DNA of 64,000 nucleotides from Chiua virens. Taxonomy: Eukaryota; Basidiomycota; Agaricomycetes; Boletales; Boletaceae. The notes beneath the pieces were generated by a model that saw nothing but the letters and a program-made list of their open reading frames with translations, was not told the DNA's origin and ran no database searches. Position 1 is the stretch's first letter; each line of letters begins with the position of its first letter. Location: positions 62,001 through 126,000 of the forward strand of contig JAHNUO010000006.1 of assembly GCA_019787685.1 (NCBI GenBank). Reading direction: 5' to 3'. Position numbers and translations under genes: made by a program. Positions 21,660-63,200 of this stretch are shown here, one piece after another.

Positions 21660-24600
21660 TTACATGGTCCAAGGATTCATACCAAGACCGTTCCCCGTCG
21701 CATTCCTAAACTCGGCAGTCGTATTCCATGGATCTGGTTCCATGCCTTGAAACGTGATTTTCCCATCGGGAGAGCCAAAGGATAGACCTGGTGAGGCTGT
21801 AGAAGCAGACTCCCCGCCCAGGCCGCCCAGCCGATCGTGTGAGTAAGGCGATGATGCAGGACGGTGTGTAGAACTCCCTAACAAGGATCCTTCAGTCGAC
21901 CCTGCAAAGGGGTTCCCCAACGTGGTCTCCTGGGCGTTGCCCACAAGCTTCGCAGAAGGCCACGCTAGCGGGTTCAAGTTCATGTTGGGTGGATAGGTCG
22001 GCCGAGATAAGGTATTACTGGACTGTGCGGAAACTTTCGCTTCCCATTCCCCGCGCGCCTTTTCAATTGTTCCATAGGGTTCTCTGTGGCTCACTGTCAA
22101 AGTGGAGAAAGCGGAACCCAGCGTGTCAGACAAGTTCCGGTCTGATGTGGCTGCGTGATCGCCGTCATAAGGGATTGGCCTGACAGCGCCAGTCGCTGTC
22201 CCAGTCTGCCTTATTGGGGATGATAACGGTCCACCTGATTCAGAAGATAACGTAGGCGGTACTGAGGCGTCCTGATCTGGTTTAGTCTGTGGAACAACTA
22301 GCTGCTCGGGACGACGCTCCGCCTCCCCGATCATGTGTTTCATAGCAGCTAAGTCAAACCCGGCATGGACAGGAACATCGGATCCGGGGTCAGATGCGCC
22401 ACTGGTATTTTTTGGACCAGAAGGTACGGGATTCGGAACGCTATCTGTCCGAGGGGGGAGGTCGTCTTCTTGTGACTTGGACGAGGGCGCTTTTCTCCTC
22501 GAGGAACCGAAAGAGGCAGCGGAAGGAGGTCGAGAAGCGGCGGAGGAAGATTGTGACGTCTTTGGGCGCTTCGAGAACCATCCTTGCTTCTGCGGCTTGG
22601 CCTCTTCAGTCTCCTCCCGAATCACCACTCTGTCTCCTTCAAAGTCGGGTTCCTGTTCCATTAAATCAATCACCATGCGAACAGCGCCGCTTGAGCCAAT
22701 GAGTGTGTAATACGCACCACAGGTTCGTCAAAGTAATCCGCAGTCACTGGGAACCCCAGTTGGTCAAGAATGAGTGGCATGAAGGTTCTATAACTCATGT
22801 GACCCGCAATTTTGTCCGTCACCTCTACGTTCTCCAATCCAGGTATACCCTCTATCGGCCTCAGCCCAGCTACGGAATTAAGGCCCCCACTCGTTGCGCG
22901 AAACAGATAGTTCAAAACCCAGTCGTTCTTTGCATACGTATTCACGAATCGGCCCGAAACAGCGCTCCGAGCACTGCACCATGTGCTTTGCGAGGCGGTG
23001 ACCGTGGCGCCAAGAATGAAGACGTCTTGCACGATGCCGAAAGCCTTTGCCTTAGCGAGTTCTAGCAGCGCATAAAAGATGGCACGAGCACCAAGCGAGA
23101 AGCCAATCAATGTGATCGGTCTAACCCCAAGATGCCGCTGTAATAATAGTTGCGCAAGCACACTTCCCGCTGCGCGTGCTCGATCAAGAGCATTGCTCCA
23201 AGGGTTATCGATGAGGTAACCTAGCTTTGTAAGGACTAGTGAGATGGTTAGTCCTTTACGGGATCCAGACAACAAAACAACGGTGACTCACTAATAGGCC
23301 ATTGCAGTGCACCCATCAATGCTGTCATGGCAGTATGCTGCAATACCGTCTGACCGAGCTGAGTCAAAATCTCGCCCGTCAAAATCTTGAGGGCACTCCC
23401 GGTTTCTTGGATCATTTCAGGTTCCCAAAGAATGCTGAATACATCCCCGACAATGGGATCTAGCACGCTAAAAGGTAGTCGTACGTCATCTATCTTGCCA
23501 CTCATGAACCTACAAATATATGAGCGGGGTCAAGGAGACAAAAACGCCATCCGTACCCAGGTACAGTCAATATGCAACTCACTCGTTTGTTATTATGAAG
23601 AGGTAGTACATCAAAAGTCCTCACACTTTGAGTCCGTCTGGCCATACCACGTGCAGCGATGCTGGAGCCTGTCAATATCCCACCTGTCGTGATCACTGCA
23701 GCGCCTCCTGTACCAGCGAGGAAGCCTGTCGTCCCTGAGATACCGACAGTTGCGAACGCAGCGCCGAGGCCGGCACCAATGACAGGAGCCAACAACCCAG
23801 CTGACAGCCCAATCACGAGACCACCCCCTGCAAACTAAAGTGAATTGATCGTAATGGCTACCAATGTTCGAATCACCTACCTAAGGTTGCAAGGCCCATC
23901 ATCATATATCGTCTTTTCCGTGCAGCCTTGGAAGAACCTTCGATGATATCCTGGTTTTCCAACTTCTCGGTACCCTCCTGAATTTCGAGCGCTTCGGTGA
24001 CGCGCCGCTCAAACTTGACGACGTCAATCCAACCAAGGCCGAGTTTCAGAGCGACATGTTCTAGCAGTACGCGTGAACGGGCGTCATAAACACTGTCGGC
24101 AACTAAGATGAGGAACAAGTCGCACAAGACTGTCCATCGAATGTCAAGCGTGACATCCTTGTCGATGGACGACAGTGTCATGGTGACACCAGGTAGAGAT
24201 GACGAAGCCACGGACGTGTTTTCCAGGACACGAGCCGTCGTTTGAAATTGGGGTGTAGTTGGTGATGAAGGCGGCATGGGGCCCGCTGGGGGGTTGGAAG
24301 GTGCGAGATTGATGTCGTGTCCTGTCGGGTGGGATGCTTTCTCCATTTCCAGTTTCTTGGCTTCGACAGGATCGTATTCTGGATTAGCGATCGTGTGTGT
24401 CGTCATCAAAGAGGGGGCTAGATCGCTGGCTTGCACGCCATGCAACGCAAGACTGTCGATCATCTTTTGCTCTGCGGAAATGTGTTAGGGTGTATAGATT
24501 ATTTGCAGGAAAAGGGGGATGGAATGACGAATGAGATACCTGCAGTCTCGAGATCCATATGGTAGTAAAGTCGCCCCATCACCTTCAACGCCCAGAGCTC

Positions 24601-30381: not shown

Positions 30382-32038
30382 ATGATGACTTTCGACGACT
30401 ACGACGAGAACGCTGTGGGTGTAACTTGGATCATACCATCAATCTTCTACGTGCTGACCTCTTCACTCTCAGGAAATCATATCCGATGGCCCCACCTCCA
30501 TCGTAACCCGCATCGAATCTGAATTGTCAGACGGCCCTCGGTTCATCGCGGTCAAGACGTCCACTACGGCACATGCCAAAGAGCCTCACGATATCATCAA
30601 GGAAGTTCGTCTACTTGCTTCCCTTTCACATCCGAATGTACGTCGCATTCTGCGTCCGAGTTCTATCATTCAGTAATCTTGAACCTTGCGTGTCCCAGAT
30701 CATCCCACTAATCAAGCAAGAACCAAACCAACGATCCCAAAATCTGAGTTTTTGGATGCCATACATGCCTTACTCGCTAGACGAGCTTCTCAAATCTTCT
30801 CGGTTCTCCCCGCACCCCATCGTTTCGTTTGGTGACGCCGCCTCACCCTCCCCGACACCACGCGAAGTTCAGTTCGTCGTTCTTGCCAAGTCGATCATCT
30901 TCCAAGTCCTGTCTGGAGTGAGCTACCTACACAGCGAACACGTCCAGATCGCCCACCGGGATATCAAGCCGAGCAACATCCTTATGACGCTGTCTGGATG
31001 TGCACGACTGATCGACTTTGGGATCGCATTTTGCGCGGACGAGGAGACTACCGCGAAAGCGAAAGACTTGTGGCCCGAGTCGATCGCGCGAATGTATTTT
31101 GAGGTGTCAACTGGGTACGACAACAGTTTCCTTTTGTCGTATACCTAGCAGTTCTTTGTCGGTACTGACGCTTGTATACGTACAGTCCCTATCGGCCGCC
31201 AGAACTTCTTTTTGGTCCGCGGTCGTACGACGCCTTTGCCATCGATGTGTGGAGCCTCGGAGTCACCTTGGCTGAATTCTTCACCTCGCTCCGTCTTCAG
31301 ACGGACTCGGACTCGGACGACGAGGATCTCGCCCTTTTGAACCGTGCTGACGATGGAGAATCTGGGTCTGAGTCGAACGCCGACTCGCCACGAGCATTCA
31401 CCCCATCCCCAACGCCGTTCATCATCCCACGAGGAAATCGCCCACGTCCGGGCATACCGACGGGTAGGTGGACCCGGACGAGTCTATTCGATGCAACGCG
31501 CGGCGAGATCGGGCTCGCGTGGAGTATCTTTCGGGTGCGTGGCACACCGAACGAGAGTACGTGGCCAGTACGTCCTTCTCCCTACGTTATACATTTTAAC
31601 GCACTGACCACATCCTTCACACGCCCAAACAAACAGTCGTTTCTGACCCTCCCGGATGCATCCAAGGTCTCCTTTGCCAACGTCGATGCAGTCGACTTGT
31701 CGTCGCGCCTTCCAAATCTCCCTCTGTCCACCTCGAGCATTCGACTCGACACGACCACACACGTGCCACTGCCAGACCCAGTTTCCTCCCCGCTCGACCT
31801 CATCCACCGCTTCCTCGTGTACGAGCCTGCTCGCCGGCTCCGCCCCTCCGAGGCCCTCGGACATCCTTGGTTCAAAGCTGAGCCTGGGTTGGTGTTACCC
31901 ACAGATGCGGATTATATAGAGTATCCGTCGTGGGTAGCGGAGACGGGAACGGTGATGCGTACGTTCAACTTGGAAGGGAAAACGCGTACGGTCGGCGATC
32001 TGTTGCAGATGCAGGGCATTGTCGGAAAGGAAATGTAG
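30382..32038 (+). CDS. CMGC-like Ser/Thr protein kinase (Csk1-type), copy 1
   Basis: Exon 1 (MMTFDDYDENA) joins by a GTGGGT donor to EIISDGPTSIVTRIESE and RFIAVKTSTTAHAKEP (catalytic lysine in AVK). Next come IIKEVRLLASLSHPN, IIPLIKQEP, WMPYMPYSLDELL, VSYLHSEHVQIAHRDIKPSN (catalytic loop HRDIKPSN) and LIDFGIAF (DFG). EVSTG-PYRPPELLFG is split by an intron, followed by DAFAIDVWSLGVTLAEFFTS. A Ser/Asp-rich insert precedes LFDATRGEIGLAWSIFRVRG and NESTWP, and the C-lobe ends ALGHPWFKAEP with the stop at 32038. No classical glycine loop is visible. The nearest named type I know is the fission yeast Csk1 CDK-activating kinase (inference from layout). The frame is intact throughout. Confidence 0.8.
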
Positions 32039-34819: not shown

Positions 34820-37800
34820 ATGAAAAGGTTTATAGCTCGCGCTCGTTTTCCGTGCTTTCGCTCCAAGGCTCCCGCGAGACCTTCCACAGAATCTGTCGCA
34901 GAGCCACCCACAGAGCCTCTCGCAGAACCGTCCACGGAATCTCTCGCAGCGCCACTCGCAGAACCTCCCACAGAGCCACCCGCAGAACCTCTCGCAGGAC
35001 CTTCCGCAGAATCTGTCGCAGAGCCACCCACAGAACCTCTCGCAGAACCGTCCACAGAACCTCTCGCAGCGCCACCCGCAGAACCTCTCGCAGGACCTTT
35101 TGCTGAATTTCCTGAGGAGTCATCCGCGGAACCTATTATGCAGATGGACGGCATCAGAAAGAAATTCGGGCGGTTCAGAATTCTCATCATAGGCCGAGCC
35201 AATGCCGGGAAGACTACCATACTTAAGCAAATCTGCAACTCCACGGAAGATCCAGTGGTCTTTGATGGACATGGGAATAAGGTATGCTTAAACGAGATGT
35301 CCGTGACGATGCGGGCGCACTGATAGTCTGCGATCAGGTCGATCTAGCACAGATCCAGGAATCTCGGGACGTGAGTTAAATGGTTACCGTGAAGTCCTGA
35401 TCAGTAACAGTTTTCTAACACGTCTCAAGCGCGGAATGCATAACATCGAGAACGAATTGGTCTTTCGAAGCAACCCAAGTTTTATCTTTCATGACTCACA
35501 GGGCTTCGAAGCTGGTAGCATCAGCGAATTTGAACAGATGAAGGAGTTTGTTTCATCGCGTGCAAAGACAGCACACCTCAAGAAGCGAGTCCATGCTATA
35601 TGGTAAGGAGAGATAGCAGGATTTATGCCATGCTGACAATGACAACATTGTGACTGAACAGGTACTGTATTCCAATGGACCAGTACCACCGAGCTGTCTT
35701 GTCCGCTGAGGAAATGTTTTTCAATGAATGTGACACAGGGAGTGGTAAGTGCTCCTGATGGATGTATGAAGTTGTTTTTCTCATACTATTTGCAGTGCCT
35801 GTGGTACTTGTATTCACAAAATGTGATGCACTGCTGATACAAGGGTTGGCAGCCTTGACACCTGAAGAACAGAAGCTTTGTCATGAGAGAAGGGTTGTGA
35901 TTGGACAGCAGAATGCTGAGAGAATGCTGAAAGGAAATCCTACATGGGAGAGGGTACAAAAAATGAGGCATCCACCAAATGCATATGTGGAGTTAAGAGG
36001 TATGTATGATATACATGTCTCATGGCCAAACTGATTGTAATGTACATAGAACTGCACAAGTCAAATGAGGGGTGTAAACTTCTCTTGAAAAGGACTGTGG
36101 GGGCCTTGGATGAAGAAGGATTGCAGATGCTGCTTGTGACTACACAACACACAAACATGCTGCTTTGCATTGAGTATGGGTTTATGAGGTAATTTATATG
36201 GAGTTTGTGGATTATGGGTTATATGTATTAAAGCATTTTACAGGGTCCTGATACCTTTCATTCAGGATATATATAAGAACATGGGACCATTGACAGATTC
36301 TGCACAGCAGATGTTGGTGGAAGGAATTGGATCATGGTTTCCACATCTTCAGGTGTGTGAATTTGTATGCAGTGAATGAGATCTGTAGTGAAAGAAATTG
36401 TTGTCCTATTCATAAAAGGTGAGACATCCTTGTGATTGTAAATGAGGATGCTGGATGATCTATGCCCTGCTGTGCTTGCCCCTGTCCTGCCATTCATAGT
36501 CAGTAAGTGCTCTGATTGTGAATGGGGTTCCAGAAGGATGCTGATGCATGCCCCTCTGTGCTTGCCCCTGTCCTGCCATTCATAGGATGTAAGTGCTCTG
36601 ATTGTGAATGGGGTTCCAGAAGGATGCTGATGCATGCCCCTCTGTGCTTGCCCCTGTCCTGCCATTCATAGGATGTAAGTGCTCTGATTGTGAATGGGGT
36701 TCCAGAAGGATGCTGATGCATGCCCCTCTGTGCTTGCCCCTGTCCTGCCATTCATAGCTTGTAAGTGCTCTGATTGTGAATGGGGTTCCAGAAGGATGCT
36801 GATGCATGCCCCTCTGTGCTTGCCCCTGTCCTGCCATTCATAGTATGTAAGTGCTCTGATTGTGAATGGGGTTCCAGAAGGATGCTGATGCATGCCCCTC
36901 TGTGCTTGCCCCTGTCCTGCCATTCATAGCTTGTAAGTGCTCTGATTGTGAATGGGGTTCCAGAAGGATGCTGATGCATGCCCCTCTGTGCTTGCCCCTG
37001 TCCTGCCATTCATAGGATGTAAGTGCTCTGATTGTGAATGGGGTTCCAGAAGGATGCTGATGCATGCCCCTCTGTGCTTGCCCCTGTCCTGCCATTCATA
37101 GGGAGTAAGTGCTCTGATTGTGAATGGGGTTCCAGAAGGATGCTGATGCATGCCCCTCTGTGCTTGCCCCTGTCCTGCCATTCATAGCTTGTAAGTGCTC
37201 TGATTGTGAATGGGGTTCCAGAAGGATGCTGATGCATGCCCCTCTGTGCTTGCCCCTGTCCTGCCATTCATAGCTTGTAAGTGCTCTGATTGTGAATGGG
37301 GTTCCAGAAGGATGCTGATGCATGCCCCTCTGTGCTTGCCCCTGTCCTGCCATTCATAGTATGTAAGTGCTCTGATTGTGAATGGGGTTCCAGAAGGATG
37401 CTGATGCATGCCCCTCTGTGCTTGCCCCTGTCCTGCCATTCATAGGATGTAAGTGCTCTGATTGTGAATGGGGTTCCAGAAGGATGCTGATGCATGCCCC
37501 TCTGTGCTTGCCCCTGTCCTGCCATTCATAGCGAGTAAGTGCTCTGATTGTGAATGGGGTTCCAGAAGGATGCTGATGCATGCCCCTCTGTGCTTGCCCC
37601 TGTCCTGCCATTCATAGCCAGTAAGTGCTCTGATTGTGAATGGGGTTCCAGAAGGATGCTGATGCATGCCCCTCTGTGCTTGCCCCTGTCCTGCCATTCA
37701 TAGCTTGTAAGTGCTCTGATTGTGAATGGGGTTCCAGAAGGATGCTGATGCATGCCCCTCTGTGCTTGCCCCTGTCCTGCCATTCATAGCGAGTAAGTGC

Positions 37801-39630
37801 TCTGATTGTGAATGGGGTTCCAGAAGGATGCTGATGCATGCCCCTCTGTGCTTGCCCCTGTCCTGCCATTCATAGCTTGTAAGTGCTCTGATTGTGAATG
37901 GGGTTCCAGAAGGATGCTGATGCATGCCCCTCTGTGCTTGCCCCTGTCCTGCCATTCATAGCTTGTAAGTGCTCTGATTGTGAATGGGGTTCCAGAAGGA
38001 TGCTGATGCATGCCCCTCTGTGCTTGCCCCTGTCCTGCCATTCATAGTATGTAAGTGCTCTGATTGTGAATGGGGTTCCAGAAGGATGCTGATGCATGCC
38101 CCTCTGTGCTTGCCCCTGTCCTGCCATTCATAGGATGTAAGTGCTCTGATTGTGAATGGGGTTCCAGAAGGATGCTGATGCATGCCCCTCTGTGCTTGCC
38201 CCTGTCCTGCCATTCATAGCCAGTAAGTGCTCTGATTGTGAATGGGGTTCCAGAAGGATGCTGATGCATGCCCCTCTGTGCTTGCCCCTGTCCTGCCATT
38301 CATAGCTTGTAAGTGCTCTGATTGTGAATGGGGTTCCAGAAGGATGCTGATGCATGCCCCTCTGTGCTTGCCCCTGTCCTGCCATTCATAGCCAGTAAGT
38401 GCTCTGATTGTGAATGGGGTTCCAGAAGGATGCTGATGCATGCCCCTCTGTGCTTGCCCCTGTCCTGCCATTCATAGCGAGTAAGTGCTCTGATTGTGAA
38501 TGGGGTTCCAGAAGGATGCTGATGCATGCCCCTCTGTGCTTGCCCCTGTCCTGCCATTCATAGCGAGTAAGTGCTCTGATTGTGAATGGGGTTCCAGAAG
38601 GATGCTGATGCATGCCCCTCTGTGCTTGCCCCTGTCCTGCCATTCATAGCTTGTAAGTGCTCTGATTGTGAATGGGGTTCCAGAAGGATGCTGATGCATG
38701 CCCCTCTGTGCTTGCCCCTGTCCTGCCATTCATAGGGTGTAAGTTTTCTGACTGTGAATGAGCTTCCAGCAGGATCCTGATCTGTACTGTTTATCATAAC
38801 TTCCTTCATAATGTCTATAATAGCTGGTATGTATTTCACTTCATTTCACTTCATTCATTATTTGACATTCTATAGGATGTAAGCATTTATATCTCCTTTG
38901 ATTTTCAAATATTTTAATCCCTATTTATTTTGATTCATCAGATGGTATGAGCAATTTCTCATTTTGCTTCATATGCCTTATGTTTTATAGGAGGTTTGTC
39001 ATCTGTTGCATTTCTTGCAGTATAAATAATGATATCAACTTCATAGATTTTGCAGGCCTCTCATGTATGTTGATCCATTTTAGTCTTCTATTTAGTCTTC
39101 TGATTTTCTTTTTCAATCAATTAATATACAATATCCTCAGCGCTATATTCCTCTTGATCATAGTGCACTGGCAAGAAAGTGCACATCCATTGTGAGTATG
39201 ATTTTATAATCCCAGTCTACCTACTATTTTATTCCATAATTCAGTCTTCTTTGCAAGATGCTACTGCATGGCACACAGCACTTCATTTAGGCATTGGTCA
39301 GTTTTCTCAGTGCCAAATTCAGTAACTATCTCCATTAACATTTGTAGCCATTGCCATTATCCTGGAGCATTCATTCTTCTTACACCAGAAAGGTGTTCAA
39401 GACCCAATCATGGTAGCAACCCAGCTTTATGAATCATCTGAAACAATCCACAAAGTCAAGGAAGCAGTCTCTGAGCTTATTTCTCAATATGACTTTGAGG
39501 ATAGAAAGAAAATGGCAGAGCTCCTTTTGCATCTGATTTCTAAGAGTCTTATTTGTAAGTCATTTGCCCTTTTGGTCATCATGAACAACTTTTGAAATTA
39601 TGTATATTAGCTACAAATGTCACCAAGTGA
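34820..39630 (+). CDS. P-loop GTPase with single-codon microexon array, copy 1
   Basis: Agaricomycete family of G-domain proteins; function unknown. Exon 1 (34820-35281) holds a basic start (MKRFIARARFP), a tetrapeptide-repeat linker, then FGRFRILIIGRANAGKTTIL with the Walker A motif at residues 125-132. Exons 35338-35370, 35430-35603, 35662-35744, 35796-35999, 36050-36188 and 36244-36352 add VDLAQIQESRD, FIFHDSQGFEAGS (DxxG), VPVVLVFTKCDALLIQ (G4 TKCD) and a helical part ending GIGSWFPHLQ. Then come 31 exons of three nucleotides each (36500-38993). The C-terminal exons are 39047-39064 (ILQASH), 39141-39191 (YIPLDHSALARKCTSI), 39245-39296 and 39348-39554 (AIAIILEHSFFLHQKG, helices to HLISKSL), with a short last exon to 39630. 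All junctions are in frame. The normal family C-terminus after the array shows that the array is internal to a gene. Confidence 0.75.
34877..35130 (+). repeat. 12-bp coding repeats (E-P-x-x tetrapeptides), copy 1
   Basis: About twenty tandem units of four residues such as EPPT, EPLA, EPST, ESVA and APLA, each encoded by 12 bp of C/A-rich sequence. It forms a flexible acidic/proline linker before the G domain. Copy 2 (54,478-54,650) has only about thirteen units in a different order. Confidence 0.85.
36353..38993 (+). repeat. Intron/one-codon-exon array, copy 1 (26 identical 83-nt units)
   Basis: 86-bp period, exact from 36500 to 38738. Every unit begins GTAAGTGCTCTGATTGTG, contains a CTGAT branch-site match about 40 nt before its end, then a pyrimidine-rich stretch without any AG, and ends CATTCATAG. 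That is a complete 83-nt intron. Between consecutive introns lie exactly 3 nt: 36500 TCA, 36586 GAT, 36672 GAT, 36758 CTT, 36844 TAT, 36930 CTT, 37016 GAT, 37102 GGA, 37188 CTT, 37274 CTT, 37360 TAT, 37446 GAT, 37532 CGA, 37618 CCA, 37704 CTT, 37790 CGA, 37876 CTT, 37962 CTT, 38048 TAT, 38134 GAT, 38220 CCA, 38306 CTT, 38392 CCA, 38478 CGA, 38564 CGA, 38650 CTT, 38736 GGT. Four further one-codon exons follow between non-repeat introns: 38824 CTG, 38876 GAT, 38942 ATG, 38991 GAG. The first intron (36353-36499) is longer. Confidence 0.9.
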
Positions 39631-43243: not shown

Positions 43244-43302
<59 letters not shown>

Positions 43303-54414: not shown

Positions 54415-57400
54415 ATGAAAAGGCTTATGGCTCGCGCTCGCTTCCCGTTCTTTCGCTCCAAGGCCCCCACGAGACCTTCCACAGAATTCCTCACAGAGCC
54501 ACCCACAGAACTTCTCGCAGAACCGTCCACAGAATTTCTCGCAGAGCCACCCACAAAACCTCTCGCAGAACCGTCCACAGAATCTTTCGCAGAGCCACCT
54601 GCTGAACCTCTCGCAGGAACTTCCGCCGAATCTCCTGAAGAATCATCCGCGGAACCTATTATGCAGATGGACGGCATCAGAAAGAAATTCGGGCGGTTCA
54701 GAATCCTTATCATTGGCCGAGCCAATGCCGGGAAGACTACGATACTCAAGCAAATCTGCAACTCCACGGAAGATCCAGTGATCCTTGATGGAGATGGGAA
54801 TGAGGTATGCTCAAATGAGATGTCCGTGACAATGCGGGTGCACTGATGGTCTGCGATCAGGTCGATCTAGCACAGATCCAGGAATCCCGGGACGTGAGTT
54901 AAACGGTTACCGTGAAGTCCTGATCAGTAACATTTTTCTAACACGTCTCAAGCGCGGAATGCATAACATCGAGAACGAATTGGTCTTTCGAAGCAACCCG
55001 AATTTTATCTTTCATGACTCACAGGGCTTCGAAGCTGGTAGCATCGGAGAATTCAAACAGATGAAGGTGTTTGTTTCATCGCGTGCAAAGATAGCACACC
55101 TCAAGAAGCGAGTCCATGCTATCTGGTAAGGAGAGATAGCAGCATTTATGCCAGACTGACAATGACAACATTGTGACTGAATAGGTACTGTATTCCAATG
55201 GACCAGTACCACCGAGCTGTCTTGGCTGCTGAGGAAATGTTTTTCAATGAATGTGACACAGGGAGTGGTAAGTGCTCCTGATGGATGTATGGTGTCCTTT
55301 TTCTCATACTATTTACAGTGCCTGTGGTACTTGTATTCACAAAATGTGATGCACTGCTGATACAAGGGATGGCAGCCTTGACACCTGAGGAACAGAAGCT
55401 TTCTCACAAGAGAAGGGTTGTAATTGGCAAGCAGAATGCTGAGAGAATGCTGAAAGGGAATCCTACATGGGAGAGGGTACAAAAAATGAGGCATCCACCA
55501 AATGCATATGTGGAGTTAAGAGGTATGTATAATATACATGTCTCATGGTCAAACTAATTTTAATGTACATAGAACTGCACAAGTCAAATGAGGGGTGTAA
55601 ACTTCTCTTGAAAAGGACTGTGGGGGCCTTGGATGAAGAAGCATTGCAGATGCTACTTGTGACTACACAGCATACAAACACACTGCTTTGCATTGAGTAT
55701 GCATTGAGGAGGTAATTTATATGGAGTTTCTGGATTATGGGTTATATCTATTAAAACATTTTACAGGGTCCTGATACCTTTCATTAAGGATATACATAAG
55801 AACATGGAACCATTGACAGATTCTGCACAGCAGATGTTGGTGAAAGGAATTGGATCATGGTATCCACATGTTGAGGTGTGTGAATTTCTATGCAGTGAAT
55901 GAGATCTGTAGTGAAAGAAATTCTTGTCCTATTCATAAAAGGTAAGACATCCTTGTGATTGTGAATGAGGATGCTGGATCATCTATGCCCCTCTGTGCTT
56001 GCCCCTGTCCTGCCATTCATAGGGAGTAAGTGCTCTGATTGTGAATGGGGTTCCAGAAGGATACTGATGCATGCCCCTCTGTCCTTGCCACTATCCTGCC
56101 ATTCATAGGGAGTAAGTGCTCTGATTGTGAATGGGCTTCCAGAATCAAATGCTGATGCATGCCCCTCTGTCCATGCCCCTGTCCTGCCATTCATAGCTTG
56201 TAAGTGCTCTGATTGTGAATGGGCATCCAGAATTGGATGCTGATTGGCATGCCCCTCTGTGCTTGCCCCTGTCCTGCCATTCATAGGAAGTAAGTGCTCT
56301 GATTGTGAATGGGCTTCTGGAAGGATGCTGATGGCATGGCTCTCTGTCCTTTCCCCTGTCCTGCCATTCATAGGGAGTAAGTGCTCTGATTGTGAATGGG
56401 CTTCCAGAAGGATGCTGATCCATGCCTCTCTGTCCTTGCCCCTGTCCTGCCACTCATAGCTTGTAAGTGCTCTGATTGTGAATGGGGTTCCAGAAGGATG
56501 CTGATGCATGCCCCTGTGTCCTTGCCCCTGTCCTGCCATTCATAGGCTGTAAGTACTCTGATTGTGAATGGGGTTCCAGAAGGATGCTGATGCATGCCCC
56601 TGTGTCCATGCCCCTGTCCTACCATCCATAGAAAGTAAGTGCTCTGATTGTGAATGGGGTTCCAGAAGGATGCTGATGCATGCTCCTGTGTCCTTGCCCC
56701 TGTCCTGCCATTCATAGCATGTAAGTGCTCTGATTGTGAATGGGGTTCCAGAAGGATGCTGATGCATGCCCCTCTGTCCTTTCCCCTGTCCTGCCATTCA
56801 TAGTATGTAAGTGCTCTGATTGTGAATGGGGTTCCAAAAGGATGCTGATGCATGCCCCTCTGTCCTTACCCCCATCCTGCCATTGATAGCTTGTAAGTGC
56901 TCCGATTGTGAATGGGGTTCCAGAAGGATGCTGATCCATGCCCCTCTGTCCTTTCCCCTGTCCTGCCATTCATAGCATGTAAGTGCTCATATTGTGAATG
57001 GGCTTCCAGAAAGATGCTGATGCATGCCCCTCTGTCCTTACCCCTGTCCTGCCATTCATAGGGAGTAAGTGCTCTGATTGTGAATGGGTTTCCAGAAGGA
57101 TGCTGATCCATGCCTCTCTGTCCATGCCCCTGTCCTGCCATTCATAGCATGTAAGTGCTCTGATTGTGAATGGGTTTTAGAAGGATGCTGATGCATGCCT
57201 CTCTGTCCTCCTGTCCTGCCATTCATAGGGAGTAAGTGCTCTGATTGTGAATGGGGTTCCAGAAGGATACTGATCCATACCCCTCTGTCCTTGCCCCTGT
57301 CCTGCCATTCATAGGGAGTAAGTGCTCTGATTGTGAATGGGCTTCCAGAATAATGCTGATGCATGCCCCTCTGTCCTTGCCCCTGTCCTGCCACTCATAG

Positions 57401-59417
57401 CTTGTAAGTGCTCTGATTATGAATGGGTTTCCAAAAGGATGCTGATGCATGCCCCTGTGTCCTTGCCCCTGTCCTGCCATTCATAGCATGTAAGTGCTCT
57501 GATTGTGAATGGGCTTCCAGAAGGATGCTGATCCATACCCCTGTGTCCTTACCCCTGTCCTGCCATTCATAGTATGTAAGTGCTCTGATTGTGAATGGGC
57601 TTCTGGAAGGATGCTGATGCATGCCCCTGTGTCCTTACCCCTGTCCTGCCATTCATAGTATGTAAGTGCTCTGATTGTGAATGGGCTTCCAGAAGGATGG
57701 TGATGCATACCTCTCTGTCCTTTCCCCTGTTCTGCTATTTATAGGAAGTAAGTGCTCTGATTGTGAATGGGTTTCCAGAAGGATGCTGATCCATGCCTCT
57801 CTGTCCTTTCCCCTGTCCTGCCATTCATAGCTTGTAAGTGCTCTGATTGTGAATGGGCTTCCAGAATCCGATGCTGATGCATGCTCCTGTGTCCTTGCCC
57901 CTGTCCTGCCATTCATAGCTTGTAAGTGCTCTGATTGTGAATGGGCTTCCAGAAGGATGCTGATTCATACCCCTGTGTCCTTGCCCCTGTCCTGCCATTC
58001 ATAGTATGTAAGTGCTCTGATTGTGAATGGGGTTCCAGAAGGATGCTGATGCATGCCCCTGTGTCCTTGCCCCTGTCCTGCCATTCATAGGAAGTAAGTG
58101 CTCTGATTGTGAATGGGGTTCCAGAAGGATGCTGATCCATGCCTCTCTGTCCATGCCCCTGTCCTGCCATTCATAGCATGTAAGTGCTCTGATTGTGAAT
58201 GGGGTTCCAGAAGGATGCTGATGGCATGCCTCTCTGTGCTTGCCCCTGTCCTGCCATTCATAGGGAGTAAGTGCTCTGATTTTGAATGGGGTTCCAGAAG
58301 GATGCTGATGCATGCCCCTGTGTCCTTGACCCTGTCCTGCCATTCATAGGGAGTAAGTGCTCTGGTTGTGAATAGGCTTCCAGAAGGATGCTGATGCACG
58401 CCCCTGTGTCCTTGCCCCCATCCTGCCATTCATAGGGAGTAAGTGCTCTGATTGTGAATGGGCTTCCAGAAGGATGCTGATGCAGGTCCCTGTGTCCTTG
58501 CCCCTGTCCTGCCATTCATAGGGAGTAAGTTTTCTACCTGTGAATGAGTTTCCAGCAGGATGCTGATCTGTACTATTTATCACAACTTTCTTTATAATGT
58601 CTATAATAGCTGGTATGCATTTCACTCCATTCAACTTCATTGATTATTTTGACATTCTATAGGATGTAAGCATTTACATGCCCTTAAATTTTCAAATATT
58701 TTAATCCCTATTTATTTCAATTCATTAGAAGGTATGAGGAATTTCTCATTTTGCTTCATATGCCTTATGTTTTATAGGAGGTTTGTCATCTGTTGCTTTT
58801 TTTGCAGTATAAATGATGATATCAACTTCATAGATTTTGCAGGCCTCTCAAGTATGTTGATCCATTTTAGTCTTCTATTTAGTCTTCTGATTTTCTTTTT
58901 CAATCAATTAATATACAATATCCTCAGCCCTATATTCCTGTTCATCACAGTGCACTGGCAAGAAAGTGCACATCCATTGTGAGTATGATTTTATAATCCC
59001 AGTCTACCTACTATTTTATTCCATAATTCAGTCTTCTTTGCAAGATGCTACTGCATGGCACACAGCACTTCATTTAGGCATTGGTCAGTTTTCCCAGTGC
59101 CAAATTCAGTAACTATCTCCATTAATATTTGTAGCCATTGCCATTATCCTGGAGCATTCATTCTTCTTACACCAGAAAGGTGTTCAAGACCCAATCATGG
59201 TAGCAACCCAGCTTTATGAATCATCTGAAACAATCCACAAAGTCAAGAAAGCAGTCTCTGAGCTTATTTCTCAATATGACTTTGAAGATAGAGAGAAAAT
59301 GGCAGAGCTCCTTTTGCATCTGATTTCTAAGAATCTTATTTGTAAGTTATCTGCCCTTTTGGTCATCATGAACAACTTTTGAAATTATGTATATTAGCTA
59401 CAAATGTCACCAAGTGA
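54415..59417 (+). CDS. P-loop GTPase with single-codon microexon array, copy 2
   Basis: Paralogue of the 34.8 kb gene with the same exon plan. Exon 1 (54415-54804) carries MKRLMARARFPFF, a shorter E-P-x-x linker, and FGRFRILIIGRANAGKTTIL. Later exons carry FIFHDSQGFEAGS, VPVVLVFTKCDALLIQ, ELHKSNEGCKLLLKRTVGAL and GIGSWYPHVE, ending at 55875. The array is at 55876-58780. C-terminal exons are ILQASQ, PYIPVHHSALARKCTSI, a short exon, and AIAIILEHSFFLHQKG to HLISKNL, last exon to 59417. No stop or frameshift was seen in any exon. Amino-acid differences from copy 1 are moderate outside the array and total within it. Confidence 0.75.
54478..54650 (+). repeat. 12-bp coding repeats (E-P-x-x tetrapeptides), copy 2
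   Basis: About thirteen units (PSTE, FLTE, PPTE, LLAE and so on), fewer than the roughly twenty in copy 1 and with different residues at the variable positions. Confidence 0.8.
55876..58780 (+). repeat. Intron/one-codon-exon array, copy 2 (diverged units)
   Basis: Same architecture as copy 1, but the introns differ from one another and vary in length (78, 83, 84, 85 and 87 nt). Each keeps GTAAGT, all but one keep CTGAT, and each keeps the terminal TAG. The spacing between TAG and the next GT is 3 nt in every case. Codons: 56023 GGA, 56109 GGA, 56197 CTT, 56287 GAA, 56374 GGA, 56460 CTT, 56546 GCT, 56632 AAA, 56718 CAT, 56804 TAT, 56890 CTT, 56976 CAT, 57062 GGA, 57148 CAT, 57229 GGA, 57315 GGA, 57401 CTT, 57487 CAT, 57573 TAT, 57659 TAT, 57745 GAA, 57831 CTT, 57919 CTT, 58005 TAT, 58091 GAA, 58177 CAT, 58264 GGA, 58350 GGA, 58436 GGA, 58522 GGA. 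Non-repeat one-codon exons follow: 58610 CTG, 58663 GAT, 58729 AAG, 58778 GAG. Confidence 0.9.
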
Positions 59418-60206: not shown

Positions 60207-63200
60207 TTACGGGCGTGATGCAGGAGAGGTAGTGACCGTAGACGGCATGGTCTTGACCGGAACGAGCGCGCGATTGTCGATCGCAATACCTAGCGACGGA
60301 TCAGTACGCGCAGAGAAGAGAAAGCTAGTGCGGGCGTACTCTGAGTCGCATTTGCAGTCTTGTAAATACCGATCAACCGATGGCTCAGTTCAAACATATC
60401 GTTTCTGCCAGATGTCAGAGGGCGCGACAAGAGCAAAGAGGGATTCACGAACCTCAGGGAGATGATAATGAACTGTGCGTTTTTGGTCCGATCTTTGATG
60501 TAGTTGGCAACGATCGACACGTTGCGGAAGTCGAGCGCAGCGTCGATCTCGTCCATAAAGTACAGAGGAGTTGGCTACAGAGAGCGGGGTGGACCGTTGA
60601 TATCTTATATGCACGCACAACCATGGCGCTTACCTTGAAGACGTGCAGTGCAAACACGAGGGCCAAAGAACTAAGAGTCTACAGATACGTGAGTTTTTGA
60701 CAGCAACGAGACTGGATGTAACCTACCTTTTCACCACCGGAGAGATTAGAGATATTTTTCCAGCTCTTCTTGGGTGGCATCACGCTGAAAATGATCCCTT
60801 CCGAAAACGGATCCATGCTGTCCACCAGCTCCAGTTCCGCATTCCCTCCAAGGGTGATCATCTATTCGAAAGTAGAGTCGCACCCGCGTGCTTCAGGAAC
60901 GAATCGAAACACGAACCTGATACATCTCCTTGAGTTTCAAAGAGATCATATTAAAGCCACCCATGAACTCGTCCAAACGCTGCTTCCTGAGATTATCATA
61001 CTTTTGTTTCTGTGCGTCGCGCGCATCAGTGATCTGATCGAGGTCTTTAGCACGACGGAGGAACTCCTCCTCGCGTTTCTTGTAATCCTTGAGTACGGTC
61101 AAGTCAGGCTTGGCGCTGCTCAGTTTTTCTATTGCGTGGAGATCAGGATGGAATTGCGGCAGGGAGGATGAGCTGCTCACCGTCCAGATACTCGGAGTCA
61201 GCGACTAGGTCGCGCTTTCGGAATTGAGTGAGTTCGTCGACGCTGTAGATGTGCAACTCGTTTGAGGATTCACGTTTTGATGGTTTCTTGGGTGGCGGGT
61301 GGCGGGTCTCCTGATTCCCGTTTGACCTGCGGTTCGGAGGGCTCACCGCCTATTGGTGCTGCCTCTGCCTCGTCCTCGTCCTCGTCGTCGCTACATTCCT
61401 GTATCAGTCAAGTGCTCAGAAAACTCCAGGGAAACTCACTCGATCTCCTCTAGCCTCAGCTTATCGTGCTCCAGTTGCCAGTGCTGCAGCGCATCCTCGT
61501 TCTCATTGGCCTCCTTTCTCACATCGTTTAGCTTCTGCGTCAACTCCATCTAACCGAGACATCAGGACGTTCGTGCGCGATATCTAAATCATACATACCT
61601 CTTTTTTTCTGAATTCTTGTATCTCTTCCCGCTTCTCCTCCAGCTGTGTCTTGAGCGCGTCCAAGTCGTCCCTCGAATGCTCCGCTGCCGTTTGCGCAGC
61701 TTCCACCTTGACCTTGAGCTTCTCCAAGTACTCGCCCACCTCCTCCAGCTGCGTTTCCAGTTGCTTGATCTCCTCATCCGCCTCTGCCACAACAATGGTG
61801 TTCCCCTTGATCGCTGACGCGTGCTTAACCGCGTCCTTTTCAGCCTTGGCTTTCCCCACCTCCGCCTTCGTGATCTCGTCGTTGGCGAGGTTGATGTGTA
61901 GCTTGATACCGTCGACGGTGGAACGTTGTTTGAGCAGCCGGGATCCACCAATATCGAGGATCTTCTTCTCGAGCTCCTTGATCGCGTCCTCGATTTTGCC
62001 CGATTTTCCCTGGAGTTCCTCTAGCTCGGCCGTCGCGGACGCAATCTCCCCTTCAAGGGCCTCGATCCGTGCCATGTCCCGAGCATCGGGCTTGCTCTGC
62101 GCCCTAATATGGTAAACCAATAAGCACTCCGGTCCAACGCCAACAGAAATAAGAAAAAGCACGTCAAGCGATGAGAGAGATACGCACCTGAGGTCACGCA
62201 CCCGCTTCTCTGCCTCCTCGAGTCGCTTCCGTCCGTTATTCACTGCCATCGTCAGCTTCTCCACGTCCATGTCTAGCTGCGGTCCTGAGAGTGCCAACCG
62301 CTCGCCCTCGCTCTCCAATGCCCTAAGCGCTCTGATCGCTTCTTCGAGCTCCCTTGCTGCAGTGTCACTTTCTTGTTCAAACTGCCTCAGCACCTCTGGC
62401 CTGACCACATCCGCTGCCAACCTGGAGCTCATCGCCCCGCGCGCGACATGGTTCCCACCACCCGACATCGTACCCGACGCATCGATCAGCTGGCCCGCGA
62501 GCGTGACCACACGCCACCGCCTCGAACCACCGAACGCGATCCGGTTAGCCTGCTCTAGATCGTCCGCGACGAGCGTGTTCCCAACAGCCTTGTAAAAAGC
62601 CGGTAAGAACTTGGGATCTTTAGGCTTGATGAGGTCATATAGCCGCGGGACATTTTCGGGCGTCTGGATACGTTCGTGAATGCGGTCGGAGGGAAGCTTC
62701 TCGAGGACCATGAAGGAAGCGCGACCGACGTTTTGCGACCGGAGAAAGTCGATGCAGGCTTGTCCCTGAGTCACGGTGTCGACGACCATATTGTGGAGTG
62801 CACCACAAGCAGTAGAGATCGCGACGTCGTACTTGTCAGGAATCGTACCGAGAGTACCTAGGCGACCCTACAGGAAGCCTGATTCTGCATATCTGAAAGG
62901 TAAGGAACAGAAAGTACGTACGTGGAAACCGTCGATGCGCCCGGTCTGCTTGAGACGGGTGAGGGAATCGAGAACCTTGTTTTGCGATGTACTGGCCGCT
63001 TGAGATGCCTTGGCTTCCTCGGTTCTCTGTCGAAGAGAGGACGATTTGCCCCGCAATTCTTGTACCTGTGCCTGAGCAGCCTGCAAACACGAACGGTCGC
63101 GAGTGAGTGATGGCGTGTCGCGTAGGTTACGAGCGCGTACATGGAAGTTCTTCTCGTGAGCCTGCAGTTCCTTCTGCAAATTTGCCTTTGTGGCCTTCAT

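Follow-up and report, generated by a model that had tools for sequence, protein, structure and literature searches.

Two GTPase-like genes with arrays of three-base stretches

Here we describe a stretch of 64,000 nucleotides (nt) from Chiua virens (Basidiomycota, Agaricomycetes, Boletales, Boletaceae), namely positions 62,001–126,000 of the forward strand of contig JAHNUO010000006.1 in assembly GCA_019787685.1. We call this whole stretch the window, and all window coordinates are positions within it, position 1 being its first letter. It contains two paralogous GTPase-like genes (34820–39554 and 54415–59341), each with a dense tandem array in which repeated intron-like units alternate with three-base stretches that we predict to be one-codon exons. 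The features of the first gene are as follows.

34820..35281, + strand: predicted exon 1 of the first GTPase-like gene, with the start codon, an N-terminal Ala/Glu/Pro-rich stretch of 24-nt repeats and the P-loop GRANAGKT; Pfam MMR_HSR1
35338–35370, 35430–35602, 35662–35744, 35796–35999, 36050–36188 and 36244–36352, + strand: predicted exons 2–7, the remaining GTPase part, from the gene model and paralog exon matches
36353..36499, + strand: pre-array stretch of 147 nt, with a zero-length junction AAAAG/GTGAGA at 36418/36419
36500..38738, + strand: first array, 27 predicted one-codon exons and 26 identical 83-nt introns; peptide SDDLYLDGLLYDRPLRLLYDPLPRRLG
38824–38826 (CTG), 38876–38878 (GAT), 38942–38944 (ATG) and 38991–38993 (GAG), + strand: predicted downstream one-codon exons, with introns unlike the repeat unit
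39056–39064 (9 nt), 39141–39195 and 39348–39554, + strand: predicted C-terminal exons, RYIPLDHSALARKCTSIVTIAIILEHSFFLH..., likely helical (compare the model of relative P0004)

The 27 three-base stretches of the first array (at 36500, 36586 and so on to 38736) recur with a period of exactly 86, and the 26 units between them are all 83 nt long and all of a single sequence, which starts with GTAAGT, has a CTGAT branch-site match at unit position 39 and ends in TTCATAG, the first AG after that match being the terminal one. Tandem Repeats Finder reports a period of 86, 27 copies and 97% matches. Only eight codon values occur (TCA, GAT, CTT, TAT, GGA, CGA, CCA and GGT), which in order spell the peptide listed above. 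This recount confirms what an initial annotation of the window had described, that is, 26 identical 83-nt units with GTAAGT, CTGAT and TAG, separated by spacers of exactly 3 nt and eight values. The annotation was right about units and codons and wrong about where the array begins: position 36353 is the donor following exon 36244–36352, and the array itself starts at 36500. Its placement of the array between exons of one reading frame is borne out by the gene models, in which the flanking exons share one open frame and every array junction is in phase 0 in both window genes. Exon 7 of the first gene terminates in ...SWFPHLQ, in phase 0, and the predicted residues directly ahead of the array peptide are ...CATCTTCAG.

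The second gene has the same layout.

54415..55875, + strand: predicted exons 1–7 of the second, paralogous gene, from the gene model
56023..58524, + strand: second array, 30 predicted one-codon exons; peptide GGLEGLAKHYLHGHGGLHYYELLYEHGGGG
58610..58780, + strand: predicted downstream one-codon exons CTG (58610), GAT (58663), AAG (58729) and GAG (58778), from the gene model
58843–58851, 58928–58982 and 59135–59341, + strand: predicted C-terminal exons, from the gene model

Here the unit period ranges over 81–90, the exon stays constant at 3 nt, and the codon content is quite unlike that of the first array. The + strand of the window has 59 occurrences of the pattern [CT]AG-NNN-GTAAG, of which 57 fall inside the two arrays and the other two at the downstream GAT stretch, one per gene; the − strand has 3. 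The stretch of the second gene equivalent to the pre-array stretch (55876–56022) also carries a zero-length junction, AAAAG/GTAAGA. Such a junction before each array may be a recursive splice point, or else a decayed unit or a unit with a shifted acceptor.

The host protein

GTPases are marked by a P-loop GxxxxGKT, a DxxG and a TKxD motif, and the gene model carries GRANAGKT, DSQG and TKCD. Pfam returned P-loop NTPase and GTPase models together with one stray weak match, MMR_HSR1 alone lying over its cut-off (22.3 versus 21.9 bits); up to E = 1 neither NACHT nor ANK was found in the host protein, and a weak match to nSTAND_NTPase5 (E = 0.038) is confined to the P-loop. A sequence search of the PDB yielded a P-loop match to ARL3 only, and a Foldseek search with relative P0004 returned, in its best 50 rows, G-alpha chains and a bacterial dynamin-like protein at low template modelling scores (about 0.24–0.30 of the query). 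As these are a P-loop match only and generic G domains, we leave the GTPase without a named subfamily; by its motifs and the G-domain fold modelled for P0004, the host protein qualifies as a P-loop GTPase. The structure model of P0004 (mean predicted local distance difference test score 78.9) has a helical C-terminal part, which the variable stretch, at and before a low-confidence segment (315–340), separates from the GTPase and its helices. In exon 1 of both window genes the 24-nt tandem repeat (34884–35093, 8.8 copies; 54474–54634, 5.8 copies) underlies the N-terminal Ala/Glu/Pro-rich repeat, whose copy number differs between the two.

A gene family with arrays throughout the genome

Family loci were collected by DNA searches of the Chiua virens genome with an array-downstream piece (at least 32 matches) and an array-upstream piece (at least 40), and a protein search of the genome with two exons gave at least 138 exon matches. 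The set examined comprises 41 loci: 38 fetched loci, one distant member and the two window genes. An array is present at 39 of the 41, two of the 39 being near-copies of others; L038 has lost its array except for one remnant unit, and in L040 the array stops after two units and gives way to unrelated sequence. Elsewhere in the family, runs of predicted one-codon exons reach 56. The 83-nt unit has at least 1188 BLAST matches in its own genome, all of which, among the matches listed, fall in loci of this single gene family; the exact repeat-derived pattern had no match among viral contigs. The distant member, L047, is 47% identical across its exon and has a period of 88 and codons of its own, which makes it likely that the array layout dates far back in the family. 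At C6:98040–158085 four members follow one another at intervals of about 16–21 kilobases (kb), three of them with near-identical flanks, and further clusters occur on C27 and C24.

Spacing of splice signals

Exact 3-nt spacing between acceptor and donor extends across the family, and it holds where the introns vary. When we started from GTAAG[TC] donors having a neighbour 60–105 nt away, 1120 of 1133 lay exactly 3 nt past a [CT]AG; of the 13 exceptions, six had no [CT]AG within 45 nt, three were non-array donors on the upstream side, 42 nt away, and the last four lay at 0, 2, 5 and 14 nt. Starting instead from CATAG acceptors, 958 of 966 had GT (956) or GC (2) at exactly +3, the eight exceptions being three array junctions (two in L027, one in L031) and five apparently stray CATAG. 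L027 has two off-length exons, of 5 and 2 nt, and L031 one lost donor. Over the same family, unit introns range from 60 to 100 nt, and 300 of 1031 differ from 83 nt (spacing filter 60–105). Thirty-two donors depart from the usual sequence (GTAGG 11, GTGAG 8, GTAAA 5, GTATG 3, GCAAG 2, GTCAG 2, ATAAG 1); 29 keep GT, two have GC and one AT, so that 3 of 32 changes fall at the first two bases (P = 1.4e-4 versus an even spread). The changed donors are altered mostly at tolerated positions.

Codon content of the arrays

We analysed 1058 codons from 36 arrays. Stops account for three of them versus 90 expected, the minimum in 2000 within-gene shuffles being 69. All three are TGA and they occur in two genes (one in L028, two in L031); if the 2-nt spacer of L027 is read as three letters, one extra TAG results. 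Since codons are inherited as types, we repeated the test on unique codon types per gene, which gave 2 stops versus 24.3 expected. Per-gene counts within codon boxes agree: TAA 0 and TAT 23 versus 48:25 for other NAA:NAT (P = 7e-9), and TGA 2 and other TG codons 11 versus 66:10 for other NGA:other NG codons (P = 6e-7). The upstream exons of L027, L028 and L031 match without stops. Recent decay, or an error in the assembly, may underlie the off-length exons, lost donor and TGA codons of these three loci.

Of the 1058 one-codon exons, 1013 have A or T as their third base, and most amino acids have one main codon (TAT 106, TAC 0; GAA 90, GAG 0). Such a bias suggests that splicing constrains the last base of the exon. 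Tryptophan is nevertheless retained despite it: TGG makes up 34 of 42 codons beginning with TG, although a final G is found in just 9 of the remaining 1016. Among the four downstream codon exons, G is the last base of three in each window gene. A small set of codons recurs from gene to gene, with GGA in 36 of 36 genes, GAA in 25, TAT in 23, CGA in 18 and CAA in 17.

A peptide at the array site in relatives

Relatives were drawn from two protein hit lists (the best 120 of 790 and the best 120 of 669 matches). Together, the matches listed include ten Boletales proteins of at least 430 residues on contigs of less than 2 kb labelled jgi or lgn. Since they keep an unbroken frame across a region that in the Chiua gene is split by six introns ahead of the array, we take these short contigs to be derived from complementary DNA (cDNA). 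All ten of these transcript-like relatives carry an insert shortly past WFP, the motif that ends the pre-array exon (WLQ in P0128), and nine continue into the C-terminal part; seven further short-contig proteins stop short of spanning the site. The inserts are mostly restricted in composition, as in ARYYYDDVRDLDVLDLLRDLDVLLLLKREKLD (P0090) and REGELHSLLYHLEYHHREEEEYHHHHHYLEYEEY (P0181). The residues I, V, T, S, N, M, C and K, which are rare in the Chiua arrays (5.5%), number 32 among the 301 residues of the inserts, whereas the GTPase parts of these ten proteins have 1067 in 2693. P0084 agrees with P0083, a genome model of Pisolithus tinctorius, at 353 of 354 residues as far as SWFPNTK, beyond which it has 44 residues that are absent from P0083. 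P0074 and P0121 differ by a 34-column gap at the array site, these being two different genes that are 60% identical. A search with the post-array protein part alone gave zero matches, and since there were none of any kind that search is insensitive.

Diversity and order of codons among paralogs

Nucleotide diversity among the codons of an array lies between 0.47 and 0.67 in all 37 arrays measured, and that among introns (commonest-length introns only) between 0.000, in the first window array, and 0.36; codon diversity exceeds intron diversity in 37 of 37 arrays. Codon order was compared between genes with 300 shuffles per pair, W1 denoting the first window gene. In W1/L009, L009/L010, L009/L011, L013/L014 and L043/L044 the flanks are 98–99% identical, yet codon order is no closer than shuffled. 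The pair W1/L010 is slightly above chance (P = 0.04), and W1 and its nearest paralog, L011, which has an identical upstream flank, have a partly common order (19 matches, P about 0.003). Most of the order is common to L042/L045, and it is unchanged in L020/L021 and L036/L037. Near-identical gene pairs show codon changes of 0/132, 0/57 and 4/66 versus intron changes of 24/3774, 20/1472 and 103/1849, with too little power to speak to conservation. Joint movement of a codon with its neighbouring intron variant, as a unit, was sought in 13 arrays and not found (z from −1.1 to 2.6).

One-codon splicing and its alternatives

The exact 3-nt spacing with variable introns, the avoidance of stops, the retention of TGG and the peptide at the same site in relatives all support one-codon splicing into a hypervariable peptide, a prediction that we consider well supported. 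Very probably, the array consists of one-codon exons that are spliced intron by intron into a peptide of 27 residues, or 31 if the four codon exons downstream are counted, which would lie between the GTPase and the likely helical C-terminal parts, the codons presumably being shuffled as cassettes and kept diverse by selection. The initial annotation had likewise proposed that each of the 27 (31) residues comes from its own exon; these same four lines of evidence support that proposal strongly but indirectly, and inclusion in this particular gene remains predicted.

Mechanistically, the short introns would be recognised by intron definition and removed successively, so that a 3-nt exon would already be joined to a longer exon by the time its next donor is used. 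Two adjacent complexes could hardly fit at once on an exon of 3 nt, so such stepwise removal is the likely route, and the zero-length junction ahead of the array in each window gene would be consistent with a recursive step. Recombination between near-identical introns may then copy codons and shuffle them like cassettes, and the peptide would be under diversifying selection that maintains the differences; that introns are homogenised while codons stay diverse is not explained by drift. The peptide probably acts in the recognition of a partner or of non-self, which is the least certain step. By analogy, the large number of paralogs and the diversity of the peptide from gene to gene resemble fungal recognition genes. 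We regard as evenly balanced the fuller proposal of a codon-cassette system, in which near-identical introns would serve as recombination arms and a recognition peptide would be rewritten residue by residue with the frame intact, in a large non-NLR GTPase family and independently of the truffle case discussed below.

Several observations weigh against one-codon splicing with cassette shuffling. The transcript status of the short contigs is itself deduced from their unbroken frame; some inserts are less restricted (14 different residues in P0017 and 13 in P0123, where 9 of 37 belong to the rare set); and P0084 terminates inside its peptide, giving no view of the C-terminal join. Genome models of relatives (P0066, P0083, P0094, P0107, P0121 and P0125) have no insert, and real skipping is conceivable. 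In Chiua itself no cDNA was found, no protein spans the array in the best 120 of 790 matches, and the annotated models P0001, P0005 and P0009 end before or just past the last pre-array exon. The shuffle-based stop test presumes that codon positions are independent, and some non-stop codons are absent or rare too (GTA 0 versus 52 expected, CGT 0 versus 50, CTA 4 versus 43), which is why the within-box, per-gene tests carry the weight. All GT-containing codons with enough expectation are depleted, as would fit harm from an extra donor, and the depletion of CTA and TTA is unaccounted for thereby. As for shuffling, the linkage between codons and intron variants is nearly nil (highest on the downstream side, at z = 2.6 in L022 and 2.4 in L020), and repeated codon 4-mers exceed shuffles in only one of 13 arrays (L019).

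The null alternative of the initial annotation, a plain minisatellite inside one 2.7-kb intron that is removed whole with its codons never translated, could draw on the tandem repeat of period 86, on the preservation of frame when the whole array is skipped, both sides being in phase 0, and on the relatives' genome models that have no insert. The spacing, stop and donor analyses make it very unlikely: a minisatellite would lead one to expect neither stop avoidance nor 3-nt donor–acceptor spacing held in divergent arrays, and TGG kept despite the third-base bias, the further four 3-nt exon-like stretches downstream, set among other introns, and a peptide at the site in the transcript-like relatives all speak against it. 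Invasion of an older continuous exon by introner-like mobile introns at every codon boundary would account for the numerous near-identical introns (at least 1188 genome matches) with differing letters between them. We find it scarcely credible, for the matches listed all lie in loci of one gene family, no reason is known for insertion at each codon and in phase 0 throughout, and the A/T third bases are unlike an ordinary exon.

Two further possibilities concern how the codons are used and how they diversify. Splicing might skip any number of codon exons and so yield many in-frame peptides from one gene, an outcome different from, and compatible with, one-codon splicing of the full array. All array exons are 3 nt and in phase 0, with identical or similar introns, and alternative splicing of codon-sized microexons is reported for the truffle Tuber melanosporum. 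Each of the ten transcript-like relatives, however, shows one insert, a count in which protein clusters at 90% identity could mask isoforms. Genes with short introns prefer neighbouring splice sites, which would favour full inclusion. We therefore put combinatorial use forward only tentatively. We consider it improbable that the codons are diversified by mutation targeted to the 3-nt exons, with no shuffling of existing ones. Such a process would suit the first array, where the introns are all identical and the codons differ at up to three positions, and the almost complete lack of codon–intron linkage; it sits poorly with a small codon set recurring across arrays, one main codon for most amino acids, an A or T third base nearly throughout and the partly common order of W1 and L011. 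Together these features indicate copying.

Relation to known systems

The initial annotation had held that no dense array of 3-nt exons was known, which is contradicted by the NACHT-ankyrin (nank) genes of Tuber melanosporum, for which tens of codon-sized (3-bp) microexons, alternatively spliced, are reported (PMC4986451, PMC3689799, PMC10197012) and credited to Iotti et al. 2012 (doi 10.1016/j.funbio.2011.11.009). The two cases share many 3-bp exons per gene, a paralog-rich fungal family and a proposed diversification of the product, with 27 + 4 and 30 + 4 such exons, as predicted, in the window genes. The truffle genes, however, are ascomycete NLRs with NACHT and ankyrin domains for which alternative splicing is stressed, whereas the Chiua genes are basidiomycete and GTPase-like, their host protein is not a NACHT-ankyrin NLR by the Pfam search above, and their diversity lies in the DNA, between genes. 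Compared with the truffle case, the novelty lies in the lineage (a basidiomycete), in the GTPase-like host gene, in the scale and in codon diversity remaining high even with identical introns. The abstract of one paper says that functional microexons had been undescribed in filamentous fungi until then (PMC11121469), and our literature search, covering the titles and abstract openings listed, brought up the truffle case and no basidiomycete or mushroom report of such arrays.

HNWD-type NLRs of Podospora are reported to have hypervariable WD, ANK or TPR repeats that evolve in concert and are shuffled both inside a gene and from one paralog to another (PMC4986451). Highly similar tandem units with few hypervariable codons, in number and order differing between paralogs, are also found in Chiua. 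There, however, the repeat bodies are intronic with one coding codon per unit, whereas HNWD repeats are coding and form folded domains of a STAND/NACHT ATPase. Fungal stwintrons and recursive splicing are alike in the stepwise removal of adjacent introns, and a zero-length junction precedes the Chiua array; the array junctions differ in having a 3-nt exon and no interrupted donor, given the 3-nt spacing of the acceptors above. Schistosome micro-exon genes (MEG) encode variable peptides through chains of very short in-frame exons, which are mostly several codons long and whose introns are not known to be one repeated sequence. Chiua shares the tiny in-frame exons and differs in that these are single codons and the introns one repeated sequence. 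Introner elements are near-identical introns scattered across unrelated genes of one genome; the many near-identical introns of Chiua, among the matches listed, are instead confined to tandem arrays of one family.

If one-codon splicing holds, about a thousand single-codon exons would have been missed by gene prediction in one mushroom genome, and a GTPase-like family would carry a peptide that varies from gene to gene with the frame undisturbed. The truffle case would not be unique and would have a counterpart in basidiomycetes outside NLRs. The arrays would also offer a clean natural test of the spliceosome on 3-nt exons, and one of intron homogenisation alongside diverse coding letters.

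Other features of the window

A perfect (TCG)19 microsatellite lies at 43245–43301. Among neighbouring open reading frames, Pfam matches are DUF726 (22670–23275, − strand), a protein kinase in two pieces (30573–32038, + strand) and an SMC hinge (61584–62789, − strand).

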